Source: Vreelandella zhuhanensis (GTDB taxonomy: Bacteria > Pseudomonadota > Gammaproteobacteria > Pseudomonadales > Halomonadaceae). Taken from it: a stretch of 64,000 bases of DNA. Where the stretch lies: the NCBI RefSeq assembly GCF_009793355.1, contig NZ_WTKP01000001.1, positions 62,001 through 126,000 of the forward strand. The letters are read 5' to 3'. Numbering within the stretch: position 1 is the first letter of the stretch; each line of letters begins with the position of its first letter. The position numbers and the translations under genes were made by a program. The notes under the pieces were generated by a model. It did not search any database. It saw nothing but the letters and a program-made list of their open reading frames with translations, and was not told the origin of the DNA. Below are positions 3,742 to 55,046 of the stretch, in pieces.

Positions 3742-3818
3742 TGGTCGGAGCGACAGGATTCGAACCTGCGACCTTTGCAACCCCATTGCAACGCGCTACC
3801 AAGCTGCGCCACGCTCCG
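3742..3818 (-). tRNA. tRNA-Pro (anticodon GGG)
   Basis: Read on the minus strand, the 77-nt gene starts CGGAGCG and ends CGCTCCG plus encoded ACCA, giving a perfect 7-bp acceptor stem. The D arm contains GCGCAGCTTGGTAGCGC, the anticodon arm TTGCA-ATGGGGT-TGCAA has GGG at the anticodon, and the T arm has GCAGG-TTCGAAT-CCTGT. It decodes CCC proline codons. tRNA genes of this kind are frequent integration sites; here the accessory stretch lies on its 3' side. Confidence 0.96.
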
Positions 3819-45403: not shown

Positions 45404-47017
45404 ATGCTACCCATGTTTTCACCCTTCATTGCGTCTCTACGCACGCGTTTTTTTCTGGCATTAGGCGGGGTGTTGCTAGGGGCGCTATTTGCGCTGGTCA
45501 TGATGGGAAAATGGATCATCCTTCCTGCCCTTTTGGAAGAAGAACGCAGCTTGGCTTCCCAAGAGCTTGACCAGCTCGAACGCAGCCTGAATTTGAATCA
45601 AAAACAATTACTGGCCCAGGTGCGGGATTGGGCGACGTGGGATGATACCTACGACTTCGTGCAGGGAAACAACCCTCGCTACGCCCAAGTCAATTTTAGC
45701 CAAAACATGTTCGAGGAGATGGGTTACCAGTTGATGGTCTTCTTCAATGCTGACCAGGAAGTTTACTGGGTAGCGGGTCTCGACCCGCAGAGTGGCGATT
45801 ACACCAGCTGCAGCACGGCCAGTGACGCCTGCGCATGGGCCGCGCCTTTTCTACAGCCGATGCAGGCGTCACTGGCCAGCATTCCTGAGCAAGGCCTAAG
45901 CAGTGTATATACCCAGCCCGGCCTTGCCCTCGTCGCCACCAATTCTATCTTGCATACGGATGAAAGTGGTCCGACACAAGGCTGGCTGTTCAAAGTGCAA
46001 AAGATGGACTCAGAATTCAAGGCGAGAATGCAATCACATACCGGTCTTGAAATAACGCTGGACACTGTGGCTGCCGATGTCAAGGATCACGCCTTGCATA
46101 GCATTGAGGGAAGCAGCATGCATGCACGGCGCCTTCTGCCTACTGCTCAGGAAGGCATCATGCTCGCCTTGGGTACCCGCCTTCACCGCGACCATTATCG
46201 TGCCAGCTTTACCACCTTTGTGTATGCCCTTCTCTGGACGGGCGCCTTGATGTTACTGGTGATTGTTACCGTATTGCTGCTGTTGGAATGCATGGTGCTC
46301 AAGCCTCTTCGCACCCTCACGAAATTTACCCATCGCTTGCAGTTTTGTGAACAGCCACCAAGACTCACCCAACGATTAAAAGCCCGCAATGACGAAATCG
46401 GGATGCTGGCCCGCGGCTTCGAAGCACAGCTGCAACGCCAACAGCATCTCACCGATGAACTTCGCGAACTTTCCACTCGTGATGCCCTTACCGGCCTCCC
46501 CAATCGCCGGTTCTTCGACGCCAAACTTGCCGACGCCGTCAGCAATGCTCACGACACTCACACCCCTTTAGGGGTAATGATGTTGGATATTGACCATTTC
46601 AAGCTGTTCAACGACCAACATGGCCACCCAGAGGGAGATAAGTGTTTGGTAATCATCGCCGATTGCATGCAACAGTTCGCCACGCTTAACGACGTTTTGA
46701 TCGCCCGCACGGGAGGCGAGGAGTTCAGCGCGATATTACCCAACCACAGCGAACAAGCGCTTGTTGAGATTGCGCAAAAATTGCGTGATACCGTCTGCAG
46801 CCTGGCTTATCCTCATGCGTTTTCCCCCGTAGCGCCATATATTACCGTGAGCGTCGGTATCGCTTCATACGAACCGAATAATCGATCCAATTCTTCTTCA
46901 TTGATGCGCGCTGCGGATCAAGCGCTTTACCAGGCAAAGCACGCAGGGCGCAATCGTGTGAAACTCTTCAACACGCCATCAACCAATAACGCCGCTGCTG
47001 CCTCTTCTGATGAATGA
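45404..47017 (+). CDS. diguanylate cyclase with CHASE4 sensor
   Basis: The 537-aa membrane protein has a first membrane segment (about 13-38), a periplasmic CHASE4 domain with the typical [16 protein letters not shown] (about 75-90), a second membrane segment (about 275-300), a HAMP-like linker and a C-terminal GGDEF domain (about 370-520) with active-site GGEEF in [12 protein letters not shown] and the start [13 protein letters not shown]. It should make cyclic-di-GMP in response to a periplasmic cue. No RxxD inhibitory site precedes GGEEF at the usual spacing. Its last 8 bp overlap the start of rsxA. Confidence 0.92.
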
Positions 47018-47591
47018 ACTGTTACTGATTCTGATCGGCACGGCGCTGGTCAACAATTTCGTCCTGGTCCAGTTTCTAGGGCTATGCCCCTTCATGGGAG
47101 TTTCCAGCAAACTGGAACCCGCCATGGGCATGTCGCTAGCGACCACCTTTGTTTTAACCCTGGCTTCGGCGGCAAGCTACGTGGTGTATCACGCGCTATT
47201 GGTACCCTTGGGCGTCGAATACCTGCGCACTATTGCCTTTATCGTGGTGATTGCCGCCGTGGTGCAATTCACCGAGGTCATGGTGCGCAAGCTGAGCCCC
47301 ATGCTGCATCAGGTACTGGGAATTTTTCTGCCGTTGATCACCACCAATTGTGCGGTGCTAGGCGTGGCGCTTTTATCGCTCAATCGTCAGTTGAGTTTCT
47401 TGCACACCACCCTTTACGGCCTGGGCGCAGCCATGGGATTTTCCCTGGTACTGGTGCTGTTCGCCGCCATGCGCGAACGTCTGGCCGATGCCGATATACC
47501 CAGGCCGTTTCGCGGAGCGGCAATCGCCATGGTGACCGCCAGCCTGATGTCGCTGGCATTTCTGGGCTTTTCCGGGCTGGCACAAGGCTGA
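47010..47591 (+). CDS. rsxA: electron transport complex subunit RsxA/RnfA
   Basis: The 193-aa six-segment membrane protein matches Rnf[21 protein letters not shown] near the start and [16 protein letters not shown] in the middle, each with one of the Cys that ligate the membrane [2Fe-2S] cluster shared with RsxE. It begins inside the preceding cyclase gene (ATGAATGA). First gene of rsxABCDGE, an ion-pumping ferredoxin:NAD oxidoreductase that in some gammaproteobacteria also reduces SoxR. Confidence 0.96.
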
Positions 47592-47598
47592 AAACGTC

Positions 47599-48177
47599 AT
47601 GATCCAATGGTTGACTGATAATACCCTTATCAGCGCGATTGTCGTATTAGTCGGCATGGCGGTGGTTTTCGGCGCCGTGCTGGGCTTTGTCGGTGAGCGC
47701 TTCAAGGTACAGGGCGACCCGGTCGTCGAGAAGATCGATTCCTTGCTCCCTCAGACGCAGTGTGGCCAATGCGGCTATCCGGGCTGTCGTCCTTACGCCG
47801 AAGCGATCAGCGCCGGCGATGACATCAACAAGTGCCCGCCCGGTGGCGAGGACACCATCCAGGCCTTGGCTGATTTATTGGGGCGTGAGCCTACACCCTT
47901 GGACGGTGTCGCCCAGGATACTCCCAAGGTGGCTTTTATCCGCGAAGAGGAATGCATCGGCTGCACCAAATGCATTCAGGCGTGCCCGGTGGATGCCATT
48001 CTGGGTGCCTCTAAACAAATGCATACGGTCATTGCGGCTGAATGCACCGGTTGCGATCTGTGTATCGACCCCTGCCCGGTGGACTGTATCGATATGCTTC
48101 CCCGGCTGGATGCCTGGCAACCGGTAACCTTATTACCGCTGGAGCAAGAAGGAGCCAACCATGGCGCGCGCCTTTGA
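47599..48177 (+). CDS. rsxB: electron transport complex subunit RsxB/RnfB
   Basis: The 192-aa protein has an N-terminal membrane anchor, a 4Fe-4S cluster domain with [16 protein letters not shown] and, further on, CPPGG, and two ferredoxin motifs [16 protein letters not shown] and [16 protein letters not shown]. It takes electrons from ferredoxin into the complex. Its end overlaps rsxC by 17 bp. Confidence 0.96.
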
Positions 48178-49834
48178 ATTTCCCGGCGGCATTCATCCCC
48201 CTGAGCGCAAGACATCGTCCACCTCGGTACCGTTGAGTGCTGCTTCGCTTCCGTCACGGGTGGTATTGCCGCTGAAACAGCACAGTGGCAATGCCGCCCT
48301 TGCCTGTGTCGAGCCTGGCCAATACGTGCGTACTGGTGAATGCATCGCCCGGCGTGACGGCATGATTTCCGCCGACGTGCATGCCAGCATCAGCGGCCAT
48401 GTATCTGAGCTCACGGACACACAAATAACCATAGAGGGTGACGGCTGTGATGAATGGCTGCTCATGCCCGTCCTTGACTGGCGCACTACCGACTCACGAA
48501 TACTGCGCGAACGGCTGGATGAAAGCGGCGTGGTGGGATTGGGTGGCGCGGGCTTTCCCACTCACATCAAGGCTCGAGTACGTGAGCGTCATGCGCTGGA
48601 TACCTTGATCGTCAATGCCGCGGAGTGTGAACCTTACATCACCGCCGACGACATGACGTTGCGTACCTTTGCGCTGGATGTTCTGGAGGGTGCCCAGCTG
48701 ATGGCGCATCTGGCAGGCGCCAAACGCATCCTGATCGGTATCGAAGACAACAAGCCTGAGGCCATCGCCATCTTGAGCCAGGCGCTAAGCCATAGCATAC
48801 CCCTGCCGGTGGAACTCAAGGTCATCGCCACCCGCTACCCCAGCGGCGGTGAGCGCCAGTTGATCAAGAAACTCCTCGACAGAGAAGTGCCCAGCGGCGG
48901 ATTACCGGCGGATGTGGGCGTGCTTTGCCATAATCCGGGCACCTTGCTGGCCGCCTTGCAGGCGGTACGCGATGGCACACCCCTGGTGTCGCGTATCCTG
49001 ACCTTGACCGGAGAGGCGCTTGCGCGACCGGCTAATGTGATCGCCCGACTGGGCACCTCGATTGGGGCATTGCTCCAGACCGCCGGGCTGGAGGAAAAAC
49101 GCCTGTTTCGACTGATTCAGGGTGGCCCGATGATGGGGGCAATCCTGGAAAGCCTTGAACTGCCGGTCACCAAGGCCACCAACTGCCTGATTGCCGCCAC
49201 TCAAGAAGAACTTCCGCCATCGCCGCCCGAGCAGCCCTGCATCCGCTGCGGTGCCTGTGAAGAGGTCTGCCCGGCAGCGCTGCTTCCTCAGCAGCTGCAT
49301 TGGTACGCTCGAGCCGAACAGGACGAACGCCTGTCCCGCTACCATCTATTCGACTGCATTGAATGTGGCGCCTGCAGCTACGTCTGCCCCAGCCACATTC
49401 CGCTGGTCGAAGACTACCGCAACGCCAAGCAACGCATCCGCTATCAGCGACTCGAAACGGCCAAGGCAGAACATGCGCGCCACCGCTTCGAATTCCGCCA
49501 GGCGCGGCTAGCCCGCGAGGAAGCCGAAAAGCAGGCCCGGCGTGAAGCGCGCCGCAACGCCGGCCGCCGCGCCACCCCTGCGTCTTCGCCGGCTGCGGGG
49601 CAAGCCGACTTGCAGGGCTTGCGTATTGCCCAGGTGGCCGCCAAGGCAGCAGTGAAGAAAGCCGAAAAGGCCCTGGCGCGCACCGCACAGCAGGACCCTC
49701 ATCAGGATCTCAGCGACCTGGAAACCCAAGTGGCCACCGCCCGTGAAAACCTTGAAGCCGCCGAGGCTCGCCTGGCGTCGGCACGCGCCGAAACCGCTTC
49801 TGATACTCCCCAGACCGACAAGGGCGCCTCATGA
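48161..49834 (+). CDS. rsxC: electron transport complex subunit RsxC/RnfC
   Basis: The 557-aa soluble subunit has a Gly-rich NADH/FMN-binding core ([18 protein letters not shown]), an SLBB-type segment, two ferredoxin motifs [17 protein letters not shown] and [18 protein letters not shown], and a long Ala/Lys/Arg-rich coiled-coil tail (about 440-557) as in enterobacterial RsxC, though shorter than in E. coli. It passes electrons to NAD. AAGGAG precedes the ATG at 48161. Confidence 0.95.
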
Positions 49835-50901
49835 GCATGATGCATGCCTCATCTCACGCCGACACCGGCCTTGCCAGCCGTACCACACCGCCTGATACCG
49901 CCCGGCTGATGCGCTGGGTGCTGCTGGCGATGCTGCCCGGCATTGGCGTCATGACCTGGCATTTCGGTATCGGCGTGCTGACCAATATAATTTTTTCCGG
50001 CTTGCTGGGCATGGGGCTTGAAGCTTTGATGCTACGCCTGAGAAAGCGCAGCATCCGCCCGGTCTTGAGCGATCATAGCGCCCTGCTGAGCGGCGTTCTG
50101 CTGGGCGTTTCCTTGCCTCCCGCCAGCCCCTGGTGGTTGATTGGCGTAGGCATGATCGCGGCCGTTGTGATTGCCAAGCATCTTTACGGCGGCCTGGGCC
50201 ATAACCCCTTCAACCCGGCAATGGTCGGCTACGCCCTGCTGCTGGTATCTTTTCCCACTCAAATGACCTTATGGTCGCCTCCCACCGGCATGGGGGAAGA
50301 TGTTTTTGCTACCTTGCGTCAATTCATGGGGATGATGTCGGCCACTGAGCTGGATGCATTAAGCGGGGCGACACCCTTGGATGCCTTCAAGCACAAGGGT
50401 GAAGCCCTCATGGCCAGTGAATTCTGGGCGGCTAATCCGTTGCCACCGGGTACGCTGCTTGCCTGGCAGCACGTCGCCCTGGCCTGGTTGGCGGGAGGCA
50501 TTCTGCTACTCTACAAGCGCATCATCAGCTGGCACATTCCGCTGGCCATGCTCGGCAGCATGCTGGCGCTTGCCACCTTGTTATATGCGGGCGATCCCAG
50601 CCATCATGGCTCACCTGCGTTTCATCTTTTCACCAGCGGCGCCATGCTCGGGGCGTTCTTTATCGCGACAGATCCGGTTTCAGCCGCCACCAGCCGCAAG
50701 GGCAAGCTGATATACGGCGCGGCCATCGGGCTATTGGTAATCTTGCTACGTACTTACGGCGCCTACCCGGACGCCGTGGCATTTTCCGTTCTGTTGATGA
50801 ACCTGGCGGCCCCCTTGCTGGATTACTACAGCGACCCTCGCCCCCTGGGTCACTCGGCACCAACACGCGGTTATCAACTGCCGCCGGAGGACCGTTCATG
50901 A
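49831..50901 (+). CDS. rsxD: electron transport complex subunit RsxD/RnfD
   Basis: The 356-aa membrane subunit has the covalent FMN attachment motif SGATPLDAFK (about 176-185, Thr), GGLGHNPFNPAMVGYALLLV and about nine membrane segments, as in NqrB and RnfD. It overlaps rsxC and rsxG by 4 bp each (ATGA), so the operon is translationally coupled. Confidence 0.95.
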   Translation: MSMMHASSHADTGLASRTTPPDTARLMRWVLLAMLPGIGVMTWHFGIGVLTNIIFSGLLGMGLEALMLRLRKRSIRPVLSDHSALLSGVLLGVSLPPASPWWLIGVGMIAAVVIAKHLYGGLGHNPFNPAMVGYALLLVSFPTQMTLWSPPTGMGEDVFATLRQFMGMMSATELDALSGATPLDAFKHKGEALMASEFWAANPLPPGTLLAWQHVALAWLAGGILLLYKRIISWHIPLAMLGSMLALATLLYAGDPSHHGSPAFHLFTSGAMLGAFFIATDPVSAATSRKGKLIYGAAIGLLVILLRTYGAYPDAVAFSVLLMNLAAPLLDYYSDPRPLGHSAPTRGYQLPPEDRS

Positions 50902-51539
50902 CAATCGCTCAAGCGATGCTCAGAGGCGCTTTGGCACTCGGCTGCTTTGCCTTGATTACCGCCGGGAGTGTCGGCCTCACCCGGGCCCTCACCGCTGAAC
51001 GTATCGAGACCAACCAGCTTGCGTTCCAGCATCGACAGCTACGTGAGGTGCTGCCTGACCCCTTGGATCAGCTTGAAGGACATACCCTCCTCGATGGTGC
51101 TTTTCGGCTGCCGGAGGCTAGCTCCCTGGGCCATAAGGAGGCCGAGACCGTAGAAGGCTGGCGAGTCCATGAAGGCAACCACCAAGCGCTGATCTTGCCG
51201 GTAGTGAGCCGGCAAGGCTACAGCGGAGCAATTCATCTGCTGGTGGGACTCGATCAAAACGCTCGTATCAGCGGGGTGCGGGTGACATATCATCAGGAAA
51301 CGCCCGGCCTGGGTGACAAGATAGAGCGACGCAAGAGCGCCTGGATTACCCGCTTCGATGGATTGTCTCTGGAAAGCCTGACGCCTTCCGACTGGGCGGT
51401 GGACAAGGACGGTGGCGCTTTCGACAGTTTCAGTGGCGCCACCATCACACCGCGTGCAGTGGTGTCGGCGGTGCATCAAGCCCTGCTCCATGTCGAGGAA
51501 CATCAGTTGCTGGATACATTTGAGGAGAGCTCGCCATGA
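50898..51539 (+). CDS. rsxG: electron transport complex subunit RsxG/RnfG
   Basis: The 213-aa periplasm-facing subunit has one N-terminal membrane segment and an FMN-binding domain with the flavinylation motif [15 protein letters not shown] (about 174-188). The Thr of SGAT carries FMN, attached by ApbE in the periplasm. It overlaps both neighbours by 4 bp. Confidence 0.95.
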
Positions 51540-52234
51540 GCCAGTTCAATGACTTGGCCCGCAATGGCTTGTGGTCAAACAACCCGGCGCTGGTGCAACT
51601 GCTGGGGTTGTGCCCGTTGCTGGCGGTCACCAATAGCGTGGTCAATGCCTTGGGGCTGGGGTTGGCCACGCTTCTGGTGCTGGTGGGCGCCAGCACCGCG
51701 GTCTCCCTGATTCGCCACCAGGTCCCCGCCTCGGTGCGCCTGCCGGCATTCGTGATGATCATCGCCGCCTTCGTGACCTGCGCCGAATTGCTGATGGCGG
51801 CTTACACCTACGCGCTTTACCAGATACTGGGCATCTTTATTCCGCTAATCGTGACCAACTGCGCGATTCTCGGGCGTGCCGATGCGTTCGCCTCGCGTAA
51901 CCCGGTACTGCCCGCAGCCACCGACGGTCTGATGATGGGACTGGGGTTCGCTGCGGTACTGCTAGTGCTCGGTGCCTTACGCGAAGTGCTCGGCCAGGGC
52001 ACCCTGTTCAGCGGCATGCCGTTACTGTTCGGCCCCATGGCCACCGGTTGGGAGCTCATCCTGATCGCCGATTATCAGTTCCTGTTTTTCGTCTTGCCGC
52101 CCGGGGCCTTCTTCGTCACAGGCCTTTTGATTGCCGGGAAGAACCTTCTGGATGAGCGTGGCCAAAAGCGACGCCAAGCCGTGCCCAGCGAACGGCCGGA
52201 GCGTCGCGTGCGGGTCACCGGCACGATCAAATAG
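51536..52234 (+). CDS. rsxE: electron transport complex subunit RsxE/RnfE
   Basis: The 232-aa membrane subunit is the partner of RsxA, with [20 protein letters not shown] and [20 protein letters not shown] supplying the other Cys ligands. Length is normal, so the mobile element that follows did not truncate it. Its last codons and the next about 20 bp form the presumed guide segment of the downstream omega RNA. Confidence 0.95.
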
Positions 52235-52237
52235 AGC

Positions 52238-52535
52238 CAGCAGAGAGTCAGCCGTCAACTACCTCGCCCTAAAGGACGAGGCTTGTGACAGCAAGCCCGG
52301 TTGACCAGGGAAAGCGGTAGCCAACCCGCTACGTTTGCAATAGGTCGTCAAGACCCACCGCCGAATGCTTCGCTCAGTTCGGCGCTCTGGAAGATCAGGA
52401 TCATGCTGGCGAAAGGTAAAGCGCCGAAGGTTCTGATCGCTACCGCAAGGTAGGAGCCGGTTGCAGACATTCCCGAGGGGAGACAGGTTGGAAGACCTGC
52501 GTCACCAGGCCCGTAAGGGTTCTATTTAAGAAGGA
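52238..52535 (+). ncRNA. IscB omega RNA (HEARO-type), with 5' guide from the rsxE flank
   Basis: About 280 bp between rsxE and iscB hold no gene but a dense set of hairpins: cctcg/cgagg with inner TAAA loop (52262-52281), gtagc/gctac (about 52317-52332), cgccgaa/ttcggcg (about 52360-52385), gatcag/ctgatc, ctacc-gcaa-ggtag (about 52440-52453) and caggt/acctg near 52485. Known IscB genes are preceded by such a scaffold, with the guide at its 5' end. The scaffold seems to start at gtcaactacc (52254), so the guide would be the roughly 16-20 bases before it, next to the rsxE stop. Exact ends need transcript data. Confidence 0.82.
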
Positions 52536-52541
52536 GATCGC

Positions 52542-53912
52542 ATGGCGGTGTTCGTATTGGGAAAGAACAAGCAGCCGTTGATGCCGTGTAGCGAAAAACG
52601 CGCACGGCTATTGCTGGAGCGTGGTCGGGCGGCGGTGGTGAACCTGACCCCTTTTGTGATCCGCCTGCGTGATCGGTGCCTGAGTGACTGCGCCTTGCAG
52701 CCGACGTTGCTGGGCATTGATCCGGGCAGCAAGGAAACCGGGCTGGCGCTGATGCGTCTGGAAGAAAACGCGACGGACGAGCAAGCCCCGGCAACCCGCC
52801 ATGTGCTTTGCCTGTTTCAGTTGGTGCATCGGGGCTTCCAGATTCGCCAAGCCTTGGAGCAACGTGCCGGTTTTCGGCGTCGGCGTCGCAGCAAGAATCT
52901 GCGTTATCGTCAGCCGCGTTTTGATAACCGCACGCGCAAGAAGGGCTGGCTACCACCCAGCCTGCAACACCGAGTCGATACGACCATTGCCTGGGTGAAC
53001 AAGCTTTGCCGTTGGGCACCCGTGACTCACCTGAGCATGGAGCTGGTGCGCTTCGATTTACAGAAGATGGAAAACCCGGAGATTTCCGGGGTCGAGTACC
53101 AGCAAGGCACCTTGCTTGGCTATGAGGTGCGTGAATACCTGCTGGAAAAATGGGGTAGAGAGTGCGCCTACTGCGGTACCGGTGATACGCCCCTGGAGAT
53201 CGAGCATGTGGTAGCGAAATCTCGGAACGGCTCTAGCCGGGTGGCCAACCTGACCATCGCCTGTCACGACTGCAACCAGACCAAGGACAGCCAGTGGCTT
53301 GCTGATTTCTTTGCCACCAACAAGGGACTCAAGAAACGCCTCAAAGCCAATGGCTTGTCGGCGGAAGTCCGCCTTGAGCGCGTCCAGCGCCAGCTCAAAT
53401 TACCGCTGCGGGATGCCACTGCCGTCAACGCCACCCGTTGGGCGCTGTTCGGAGCCATGAAAACTACCGGCCTGCCGGTCGCCGTGGGCAGTGGCGGTCG
53501 CACCAAGTACAACCGTCAGCGGCTGGGCATTCCCAAGACCCACGCCCTGGATGCGGCCTGTGTCGGCAAGTTCGATACCCTGAAAGGCTGGCGGGTACCC
53601 ACCCAGGTCATCAAGGCCATGGGGCGCGGCAGTTATCAGCGCACGCGCCTCGACAAGTACGGCTTCCCACGGGGCTATTTGATGCGGCAGAAGCAAGTGC
53701 AGGGCTTTCAGACCGGCGATAGGGTCAGGGCGGTGGTGCCCAGCGGCAAGAAGGCCGGAACACACACAGGTCGCGTGGCCATCCGCAAGACCGGCAGTTT
53801 CAATATTCAGACCGAACAGGGCGCGGTCCAGGGTATCTCCTGGCGCCACTGCACCCTGCTGCAACGCGGTGATGGCTACGGCTACCACCCACTACCCACC
53901 ATTCAACACTAA
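52542..53912 (+). CDS. iscB: RNA-guided HNH/RuvC endonuclease IscB
   Basis: The 456-aa protein has the complete IscB plan: N-terminal PLMP domain (FVLGKNKQPLMPCSEKRARL, 4-23), RuvC-I LLGIDPGSKETGLAL with Asp60, Arg-rich bridge helix (FRRRRRSKNLRYRQPRFDNR, 111-130), RuvC-II THLSMELVRFDL with Glu167, HNH domain with zinc pairs C208xxC211 and C241xxC244 and catalytic His222 in LEIEHVVAKSRNG, RuvC-III THALDAACVG with His334/Asp337, and a C-terminal domain. All catalytic residues are kept, so it should be active. IscB is the ancestor of Cas9 and cuts DNA guided by the omega RNA just upstream. AAGGAG precedes the ATG. Confidence 0.95.
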   Translation: MAVFVLGKNKQPLMPCSEKRARLLLERGRAAVVNLTPFVIRLRDRCLSDCALQPTLLGIDPGSKETGLALMRLEENATDEQAPATRHVLCLFQLVHRGFQIRQALEQRAGFRRRRRSKNLRYRQPRFDNRTRKKGWLPPSLQHRVDTTIAWVNKLCRWAPVTHLSMELVRFDLQKMENPEISGVEYQQGTLLGYEVREYLLEKWGRECAYCGTGDTPLEIEHVVAKSRNGSSRVANLTIACHDCNQTKDSQWLADFFATNKGLKKRLKANGLSAEVRLERVQRQLKLPLRDATAVNATRWALFGAMKTTGLPVAVGSGGRTKYNRQRLGIPKTHALDAACVGKFDTLKGWRVPTQVIKAMGRGSYQRTRLDKYGFPRGYLMRQKQVQGFQTGDRVRAVVPSGKKAGTHTGRVAIRKTGSFNIQTEQGAVQGISWRHCTLLQRGDGYGYHPLPTIQH

Positions 53913-53937
53913 AGGAGGCGCGGACAGGGAGCCCCGA

Positions 53938-53996
53938 GTCGTGCTGCGCACGACGCGCTATCCCTCCCGGCGCTAAAGTAACCGGGTTTCCCGCGC
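53938..53996 (+). repeat. right-end hairpins of the IscB element
   Basis: A perfect stem gtcgtgc-tgc-gcacgac (53938-53954) is followed by a second stem cccgg/ccggg (53966-53970 and 53982-53986). The second ends 16 bp before the nth ATG. IS200/IS605-type elements have such subterminal hairpins at their right ends. The first could also stop transcription, but no T run follows. Confidence 0.55.
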
Positions 53997-54002
53997 AAAA
54001 CG

Positions 54003-54641
54003 ATGAATGCCGAGAAACGTTACGAGATTTTCGCGCGCCTGAAAGCGGAAAACCCCAACCCCACCACCGAATTGAAATGGAAAAGCCCGTTCGAATTGCT
54101 GGTCGCCGTATTGCTTTCCGCACAGGCCACGGATGTGGGGGTCAACAAAGCCATGGACAGATTGTTTCCCGTGGCCAATACCCCCCAGGACATTGTTGAT
54201 CTGGGCCTCGACGGCCTGAAAGAGCACATCAAGACCATCGGCCTTTACAACACCAAGGCCAACAACCTGATGAAAACCTGCCGTCTTCTGCTCGAAAAAC
54301 ACGATGGCGAAGTGCCCCGGCGCCGGGAGGATCTCGAAGCCCTGCCCGGCGTAGGGCGCAAGACAGCCAATGTGATTCTCAATACCGCTTTCGGCGAACC
54401 CACCATTGCAGTGGATACGCATATCTTTCGTGTCGCCAACCGTACCGGCATCGCCAAGGGCAAGAATGTGACGGAAGTGGAGCAGAAACTGTTGCGTCAT
54501 GTACCCAAGAAATTTCTCCACGATGCCCACCATTGGCTGATTCTTCACGGCCGTTATACCTGCGTTGCACGCAAGCCACGCTGCGGCAGCTGCATCATCG
54601 AAGATCTCTGCGAGTACCCGGACAAGACCGAGCTGACTTGA
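54003..54641 (+). CDS. nth: endonuclease III
   Basis: The 212-aa DNA glycosylase/AP lyase repairs oxidised pyrimidines. It has the helix-hairpin-helix LPGVGRKTANVILN with catalytic Lys (about 115-128), the catalytic Asp in IAVDTHIFRVANR and the C-terminal iron-sulfur loop CVARKPRCGSCIIEDLC (C-x6-C-x2-C-x5-C). The start MNAEKRYEIF matches other Nth proteins. No ribosome site is seen before the ATG: the preceding bases belong to the IscB element end. Nth normally follows the rsx genes in gammaproteobacteria. Confidence 0.96.
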   Translation: MNAEKRYEIFARLKAENPNPTTELKWKSPFELLVAVLLSAQATDVGVNKAMDRLFPVANTPQDIVDLGLDGLKEHIKTIGLYNTKANNLMKTCRLLLEKHDGEVPRRREDLEALPGVGRKTANVILNTAFGEPTIAVDTHIFRVANRTGIAKGKNVTEVEQKLLRHVPKKFLHDAHHWLILHGRYTCVARKPRCGSCIIEDLCEYPDKTELT

Positions 54642-54767
54642 TTGAAAATTTACGCTTAAAACCTGAAAACCCACTTTTATAGCCAGTTTAGCCCGAAGGT
54701 CGTAGAGCCTCGCCCCTGTCCAAGGCGCTAGTCTGCTGGGGATTAATGATTCATTTTCGAGGTTTTC

Positions 54768-55046
54768 ATGCAAGATATCTGGCTTCCCCTTTTATTAGCT
54801 ACGTCTTTCGGTGCCTTTACCGGTTCTCTGTTCCGCCTGACTCGGCGACCCGGCTACCAGCGCCCCTTTCTGTTTCCCGTCCTCGGGTTGCTGGGGGGTA
54901 TCGCCGCATTCATGATCCACTATGTTCTGGCCTCGGTAACCGGGGCACCGGCCTGGTTGCTGCCGGTATTGGTGGTCTTGCAGGTGTGGTTATGGCTGGG
55001 ACCGCTGGGACCCAAGTTGCGACCGGCCAAACAACCCGAGCCCTGA
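54768..55046 (+). CDS. small membrane protein, 92 aa
   Basis: Unrecognised. The ATG at 54768 has GAGG upstream. Three hydrophobic stretches (about 5-20, 35-57 and 62-80) with a basic loop between the first two (RLTRRPGYQR) suggest an inner-membrane protein with two or three segments. It ends with a short polar tail (GPKLRPAKQPEP). It precedes the response regulator by 107 bp on the same strand. Confidence 0.65.
   Translation: MQDIWLPLLLATSFGAFTGSLFRLTRRPGYQRPFLFPVLGLLGGIAAFMIHYVLASVTGAPAWLLPVLVVLQVWLWLGPLGPKLRPAKQPEP

Follow-up and report, generated by a model that had tools for sequence, protein, structure and literature searches.

The locus between rsxE and nth in this genome raises the question of whether a complete RNA-guided nuclease system has been inserted there, and how such a system would be expressed and kept. 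The window, that is, the whole 64-kb stretch of DNA that was analysed, belongs to a member of Vreelandella (Halomonadaceae), which fits the halophile-like host suggested by the first-pass annotation. The reading favoured here, to which we give a probability of about 0.88, is that the locus carries an intact mobile element made of iscB and its omega RNA (HEARO), placed directly before nth, which would cut the un-inserted allele and so be retained or home. The features concerned are the following.

51536-52234, plus strand: rsxE, the upstream host gene on the same strand (TIGR01948, 263.8 bits, cut-off 213.4)
52238-52253, plus strand: predicted guide, 16 nt of host sequence that adjoin the scaffold on its 5' side (copy comparison and V. 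rituensis allele)
52254-52488, plus strand: omega RNA scaffold, HEARO (Rfam RF02033 and RNA fold)
52542-53912, plus strand: iscB, a predicted RNA-guided endonuclease of 456 aa (NF040563, PF14239, PF01844, expected catalytic positions, dN/dS)
53911-53918, plus strand: Shine-Dalgarno-like AAAGGAGG in the element right end (AGGAG or GGAGG in related ends; a putative function)
53918-53996, plus strand: predicted right-end hairpins, the outer stem pairing 53918-53923 with 53991-53996 (RNA fold)
54003-54006, plus strand: ATGA, at once the predicted TAM (NATGA), the insertion target and the first codon of nth (genus junctions and empty allele)
54003-54641, plus strand: nth, endonuclease III, the downstream host gene (TIGR01083, 283 bits, cut-off 211.7)

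The 456-aa ORF matches the NCBIfam model guided_IscB (NF040563) over residues 3-342 with 430.9 bits (cut-off 175), and Pfam places RRXRR (PF14239, 242.3 bits) and HNH (PF01844, 36.2 bits) on it, with the PLMP start at residue 12. Solved IscBs, including OgeuIscB (7xht), align with it in phmmer; OgeuIscB has 496 aa against 456 here. The residues that we take to be catalytic, from motif alignment and recall, are RuvC-I D60, RuvC-II E167, HNH E221/H222, N236 and N245, and RuvC-III H334 and D337. These eight expected positions are unvarying in 35/35 genus copies, which are those of the 57 genus HEARO rows that give a full-length frame, the window copy included. The description in the first-pass annotation, a 456-aa IscB with PLMP, RuvC-I/II/III and HNH and with every catalytic residue in place, thus agrees with the profile matches, as does its position between rsxE and nth. 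The sole Cas9 match is to Cas9d, at 32 bits over residues 196-250 and below the cut-off of 375, which leaves the protein outside Cas9.

The omega RNA was proposed to lie upstream of iscB, and RF02033 covers 52254-52488 with its full length (model positions 1-211 of 211) at 112.4 bits, with a gathering cut-off of 83 and an E-value of 2.2e-22. The covariance-model and IscB HMM checks that had been suggested, the first of which could have spoken against the system by giving no hit, both score above their cut-offs. This HEARO and one tRNA, a tRNA-Pro (GGG) at 3742-3818 on the minus strand, are the only Rfam matches above threshold in the 64-kb window. The omega RNA folds at -91.7 kcal/mol (z -2.54), and 4/200 shuffles are equally stable.

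The locus shares with the known IscB/HEARO OMEGA systems (NF040563, RF02033, OgeuIscB) the RRXRR/PLMP start, the split RuvC and the HNH domain, as well as the structured omega RNA on the 5' side, a 5' guide that would be taken from the host flank and a TAM predicted at the other, 3' junction. Unlike those systems, its right end has a Shine-Dalgarno-like motif and a junction on an ATGA start codon. Relatives are also found on plasmids of Allochromatium, Cupriavidus, Pseudomonas and other hosts, where the 15 listed of 80 records align with 98-100% of the query and are 52-62% identical to it, and 11/15 of those listed are already annotated iscB. The window protein is a further ordinary member of an already known family, so that the first-pass proposal of a new IscB ortholog holds in the sense of a known kind of protein with a presumed function. 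What appears to go beyond an "IscB ortholog" is its setting, as one of four copies of a mobile element whose guide can be defined and for which there are a predicted TAM and an empty allele.

In the host genome (3.25 Mb in 23 contigs, 99.5% complete) there are four HEAROs, and the four IscB frames, all open, have 100, 93, 90 and 77% identity to the query. When the four copies are aligned, the left end is sharp at 52254 and the right end lies immediately before ATGA, and the same ends, with two exceptions, are seen in the wider set of genus copies whose right end was recognised. The element is thus read from the alignments as 52254 to about 54002, directly abutting the nth start codon. The first-pass annotation had set the system at 52238-53996; the location stands and the ends do not, since 52238-52253 is predicted to be host flank and guide, outside the element.

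An un-inserted allele is found in V. rituensis, whose genome is the closest when nth identities are compared. Its plus-strand locus (L175) reads flank-T-ATGAATGCC, which places the element after the flank and before the start codon of nth. Because the site is empty there, the insertion at nth, or a loss in V. rituensis, is later than the split of the two. The site on contig C22 is filled in V. rituensis also, and that insertion is therefore older than the split, or shared. A third site, on contig C17 (G000), was dropped as a clean empty-site proof: it is empty in V. rituensis, yet its flank is not alignable base for base.

The 16 nt before the scaffold vary among the non-orthologous copies listed, and the scaffold start is constant. 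The guide length adopted here follows PMC9640706, which gives IscB guides of about 16 nt with the TAM on the 3' side. The predicted TAM, NATGA, differs from the NNRR of OgeuIscB (PMC9640706) and from the NTAAA of OrufIscB (PMC13180657). Counted from the TAM, the V. rituensis flank mismatches the window guide at two positions, 11 and 14. Mismatches at positions 1-14 abolish cleavage by OgeuIscB (PMC9640706), and given that tolerance the V. rituensis allele may escape cutting; the proper target would be an un-inserted allele in the host species itself. The guide's own locus should also escape, because it is without ATGA. In the own genome, 12 guide bases followed by NATGA have no match with fewer than two mismatches; up to three mismatches give 21 places, against 11 for a reversed control pattern.

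The favoured reading would work as follows. The element (52254-54002) separates rsxE from the start codon of nth, and in a transcript that crosses its left junction the omega RNA would begin with the host-derived 52238-52253. Loaded with that RNA, IscB would cut double-stranded DNA in which the 52238-52253 sequence is followed by NATGA; in the host species this is the rsxE-nth allele that has no insertion. Such a break would promote copying of the element from a filled allele, as retention or homing. For TnpB, a gene-drive role on plasmids has been demonstrated (PMC11870625). A single scan of the plus strand over 47000-55000 gave no sigma-70-like promoter; transcription of the omega RNA therefore rests on an unseen promoter further upstream, a point against the favoured reading.

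How such an RNA would be made leads to an extension of the favoured reading that we put forward tentatively: ATGA-type IscB elements may land in sense orientation before the ATG of a gene. The host operon would then transcribe the omega RNA together with its guide, and the outward Shine-Dalgarno (53911-53918) with the hairpins would restore translation of the host gene; in other lineages iscB would end on the TGA of ATGA, with overlapping stop and start. Insertion of HEARO at ATGA or GTGA was reportedly noted in a 2009 study. In word searches of the literature we recognised no report of IscB insertion at start codons or of an outward RBS in such elements.

At least 57 HEARO matches at E 1e-5 are present in the genus, in 11/82 genomes. 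Nineteen of these 57 rows were left out (16 whose right end was not recognised, two whose junction differs and one at a duplicate site), and the 41 genus right ends accordingly comprise 38 scored sites with ATGA, two with another junction and one duplicate site, also with ATGA; the scored sites have ATGA at the junction by selection. At 29/38 of them a frame of 100 codons or more opens, compared with 646/2295 background ATGA (Fisher P 1e-9, treating as independent sites and copies that are not wholly so, a point that counts against the extension). A frame of this length with a Shine-Dalgarno-like motif just upstream is found at 21/38 sites compared with 155/2295. The background is the ATGA in 400 kb of one genome (G226), its starts are not annotated ones, and the scored sites are pooled from few genomes. 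By crude gene calls, background ATGA comprise 92 gene starts, 1898 within genes and 424 elsewhere; because 92/516 of those outside called genes are gene starts, mere avoidance of genes would yield about 18% starts. Against the extension, 9/38 genus sites have no long frame.

Other genera gave 15 ends, from 14 loci (seven from the family, six from Marinobacter, one from Thiopseudomonas and one from Thioalkalivibrio), and 13/15 open at least 100 codons; these ends were located with the genus end sequence, so that only similar ends are visible. The locus from Marinobacter bryozoorum (L060) has two right ends within 6.8 kb, with ATGA at 1961 and 3935, and perhaps holds two IscB elements side by side. 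As a control, 30 TnpB loci yielded five ATGA-type ends, where the adjoining frames have 202, 237, 13, 2 and 12 codons; only 2/5 of these ends thus adjoin a frame of at least 100 codons, which speaks against the extension but in too small a number to be decisive.

More distant IscBs suggest a second solution. Twelve of 49 non-Vreelandella loci have an IscB that continues for 20 codons or more past the end of the alignment, although in L110, L113, L115 and L118 the alignment ends near residue 342 and the overrun includes the usual C-terminus. Ten of the twelve stop on the TGA of ATGA, which agrees with the extension, L065 stops on TGATGA and L115 on an unrelated TAA. Among the 11 distant loci that stop on ATGA, a second frame of 75 codons or more begins there in six; the other five open only 5-52 codons, which weighs against it. 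In six other distant loci the iscB stop overlaps GTGA or TTGA, and the frames there have 4 to 27 codons. In our reading of these sequences, the target in distant lineages would supply the iscB stop codon and often also the start of the next gene.

The Shine-Dalgarno-like motif is the other argument for the extension. AGGAG or GGAGG lies at -89 to -100 from ATGA in 40/41 genus right ends listed, the one end without it (G242a) having another element inserted there, and it is also present in 15/15 ends found in other genera and in 5/5 ATGA-type TnpB ends. By the same criterion it occurs in only 3/20 stretches after tnpA and, in our reading, in none at the matching place: one of the three lies inside a hairpin and two beyond the element end. 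The motif is kept in three short elements of V. rituensis (L151, L152, L209), which have the omega RNA and the right end without a full iscB and are non-autonomous versions of the element. Element right ends are also seen as an inverted pair, with 11 bp between them, in a genome that gave no HEARO match (L206:2198-2262, G219).

The hairpins may place the motif beside the nth AUG. The predicted fold of 53910-54002 (-39.7 kcal/mol, z -1.80, 12/200 shuffles equally stable) is compact and is immediately flanked by the motif on one strand and by AAAACG-AUG on the other. In related ends, an outer stem of at least 4 pairs appears in 23/28 MFE folds against a mean of 45% when the 12 nt 3' of the motif are shuffled; the 28 folds are from 33 ends, with two that gave no match and three near-duplicates excluded. 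The motif is free together with the outer stem in 11/28 folds, and the alignment consensus favours a different stem, which may be a DNA hairpin of transposition. The predicted bridging is thus the weak side of the extension, support for an outer stem that joins the motif to the AUG being moderate only, and the motif could instead be a DNA feature read by TnpA, a fair rival explanation for it.

Taken over the whole group, the start-codon bias of IscB in the genus and its relatives is well supported, and the mechanism behind it is offered as a hypothesis. It is possible, though somewhat doubtful, that ATGA-targeting IscB elements, together with some TnpB elements that have the same end, are start-codon-capture elements. 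Their TAM would in effect be "start codon plus A", and landing there would align the guide-RNA unit with the host operon. A host promoter would make the guide RNA, and either the element's own RBS or the TGA-of-ATGA stop would keep the interrupted gene translated.

The favoured reading of a mobile element also has to account for how it moves. No Y1 transposase (PF01797) is found in the whole host genome at E 0.01, a search that is positive in 6/14 control genomes. The element is thus not an autonomous IS200/IS605 member with its own Y1 tnpA, and its present mobility is doubtful because the genome has no TnpA. Five TnpB relatives are present in the same genome, on contigs C4, C5, C18, C19 and C23, despite the lack of a Y1 TnpA match. 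TnpA is associated with few HEARO nucleases only, according to PMC9755519.

By eye, several ends point to a relationship with the Vreelandella IS200/IS605 TnpA/TnpB elements. The IscB right end read backwards resembles the left end of a TnpB element in G226 (L207), as its reverse complement, and also stretches after tnpA in G217 and G261; the tnpA-side ends with this likeness are those of L225 and L232. The first omega RNA hairpin read backwards resembles the right end of the L207 TnpB element. The window element differs in having no tnpA inside and in its target, ATGA against their ATAA. We infer that it is mobilised in trans by an IS200/IS605-type TnpA absent from this genome.

G226, a single contig, has seven full-length copies at different sites, with 97.7-99.7% identity, besides an eighth copy that carries a deletion and others that are more diverged. 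No IS200-type TnpA was found in G226, where the sole PF01797 match scores 29.5 bits and belongs to a frame that is presumably of the REP-associated type. In the family search, at least 21/275 genomes have an IscB relative at E 1e-20. V. rituensis (G231) also has a second HEARO subfamily (L139, L140 and L141, 128-131 bits); by eye, one copy has an iscB-like frame, another is shorter and seemingly HNH-less, and after the third comes a Y1 transposase fragment. In G242, a composite iscB-tnpB element with shared ends was considered and dropped, as the sequence better fits a TnpB element inserted in an IscB right end; at L137:66-1568 such an element apparently lies inside the right end, its gene convergent with iscB.

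A different reading, that the element is a degenerate relic, immobile and unexpressed, is unlikely. It draws on the lack of a Y1 transposase in the genome and on the 73-90% DNA likeness among the four copies, which makes them old. Against it, the frames are open in 4/4 copies, and dN/dS (Nei-Gojobori) of the window copy to the other three is 0.10, 0.10 and 0.15, with 0.11 for one further pair among the four copies (four pairs computed). Across 15 genus pairs of 16 chosen, dN/dS ranges from 0.10 to 0.50, the highest values, 0.39 and 0.50, being those of recent G226 copy pairs with few changes; purifying selection on iscB appears clear only across longer times. The empty nth site in V. rituensis, which dates the insertion, or a loss there, after the split, also counts against a fossil.

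Purifying selection and the location within an apparent operon would also suit an IscB domesticated for a host role at nth or rsx, for example as a fixed regulator, a reading made highly improbable by the empty V. rituensis nth site, the different genes that the copies adjoin and the retention of the expected nuclease residues in 35/35.

As a mobile element that would cut the un-inserted allele, the locus supplies a compact IscB (456 aa) from a genus that tolerates salt; its short predicted TAM (NATGA) and its natural target make it useful for tests of TAM diversity. If the capture of start codons proves true, it would account for the expression, by IscB elements that lack their own transposase, of a guide RNA that begins beyond the element, and for the persistence of such elements within operons. 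It would also make the question of who transcribes the IscB guide directly testable.
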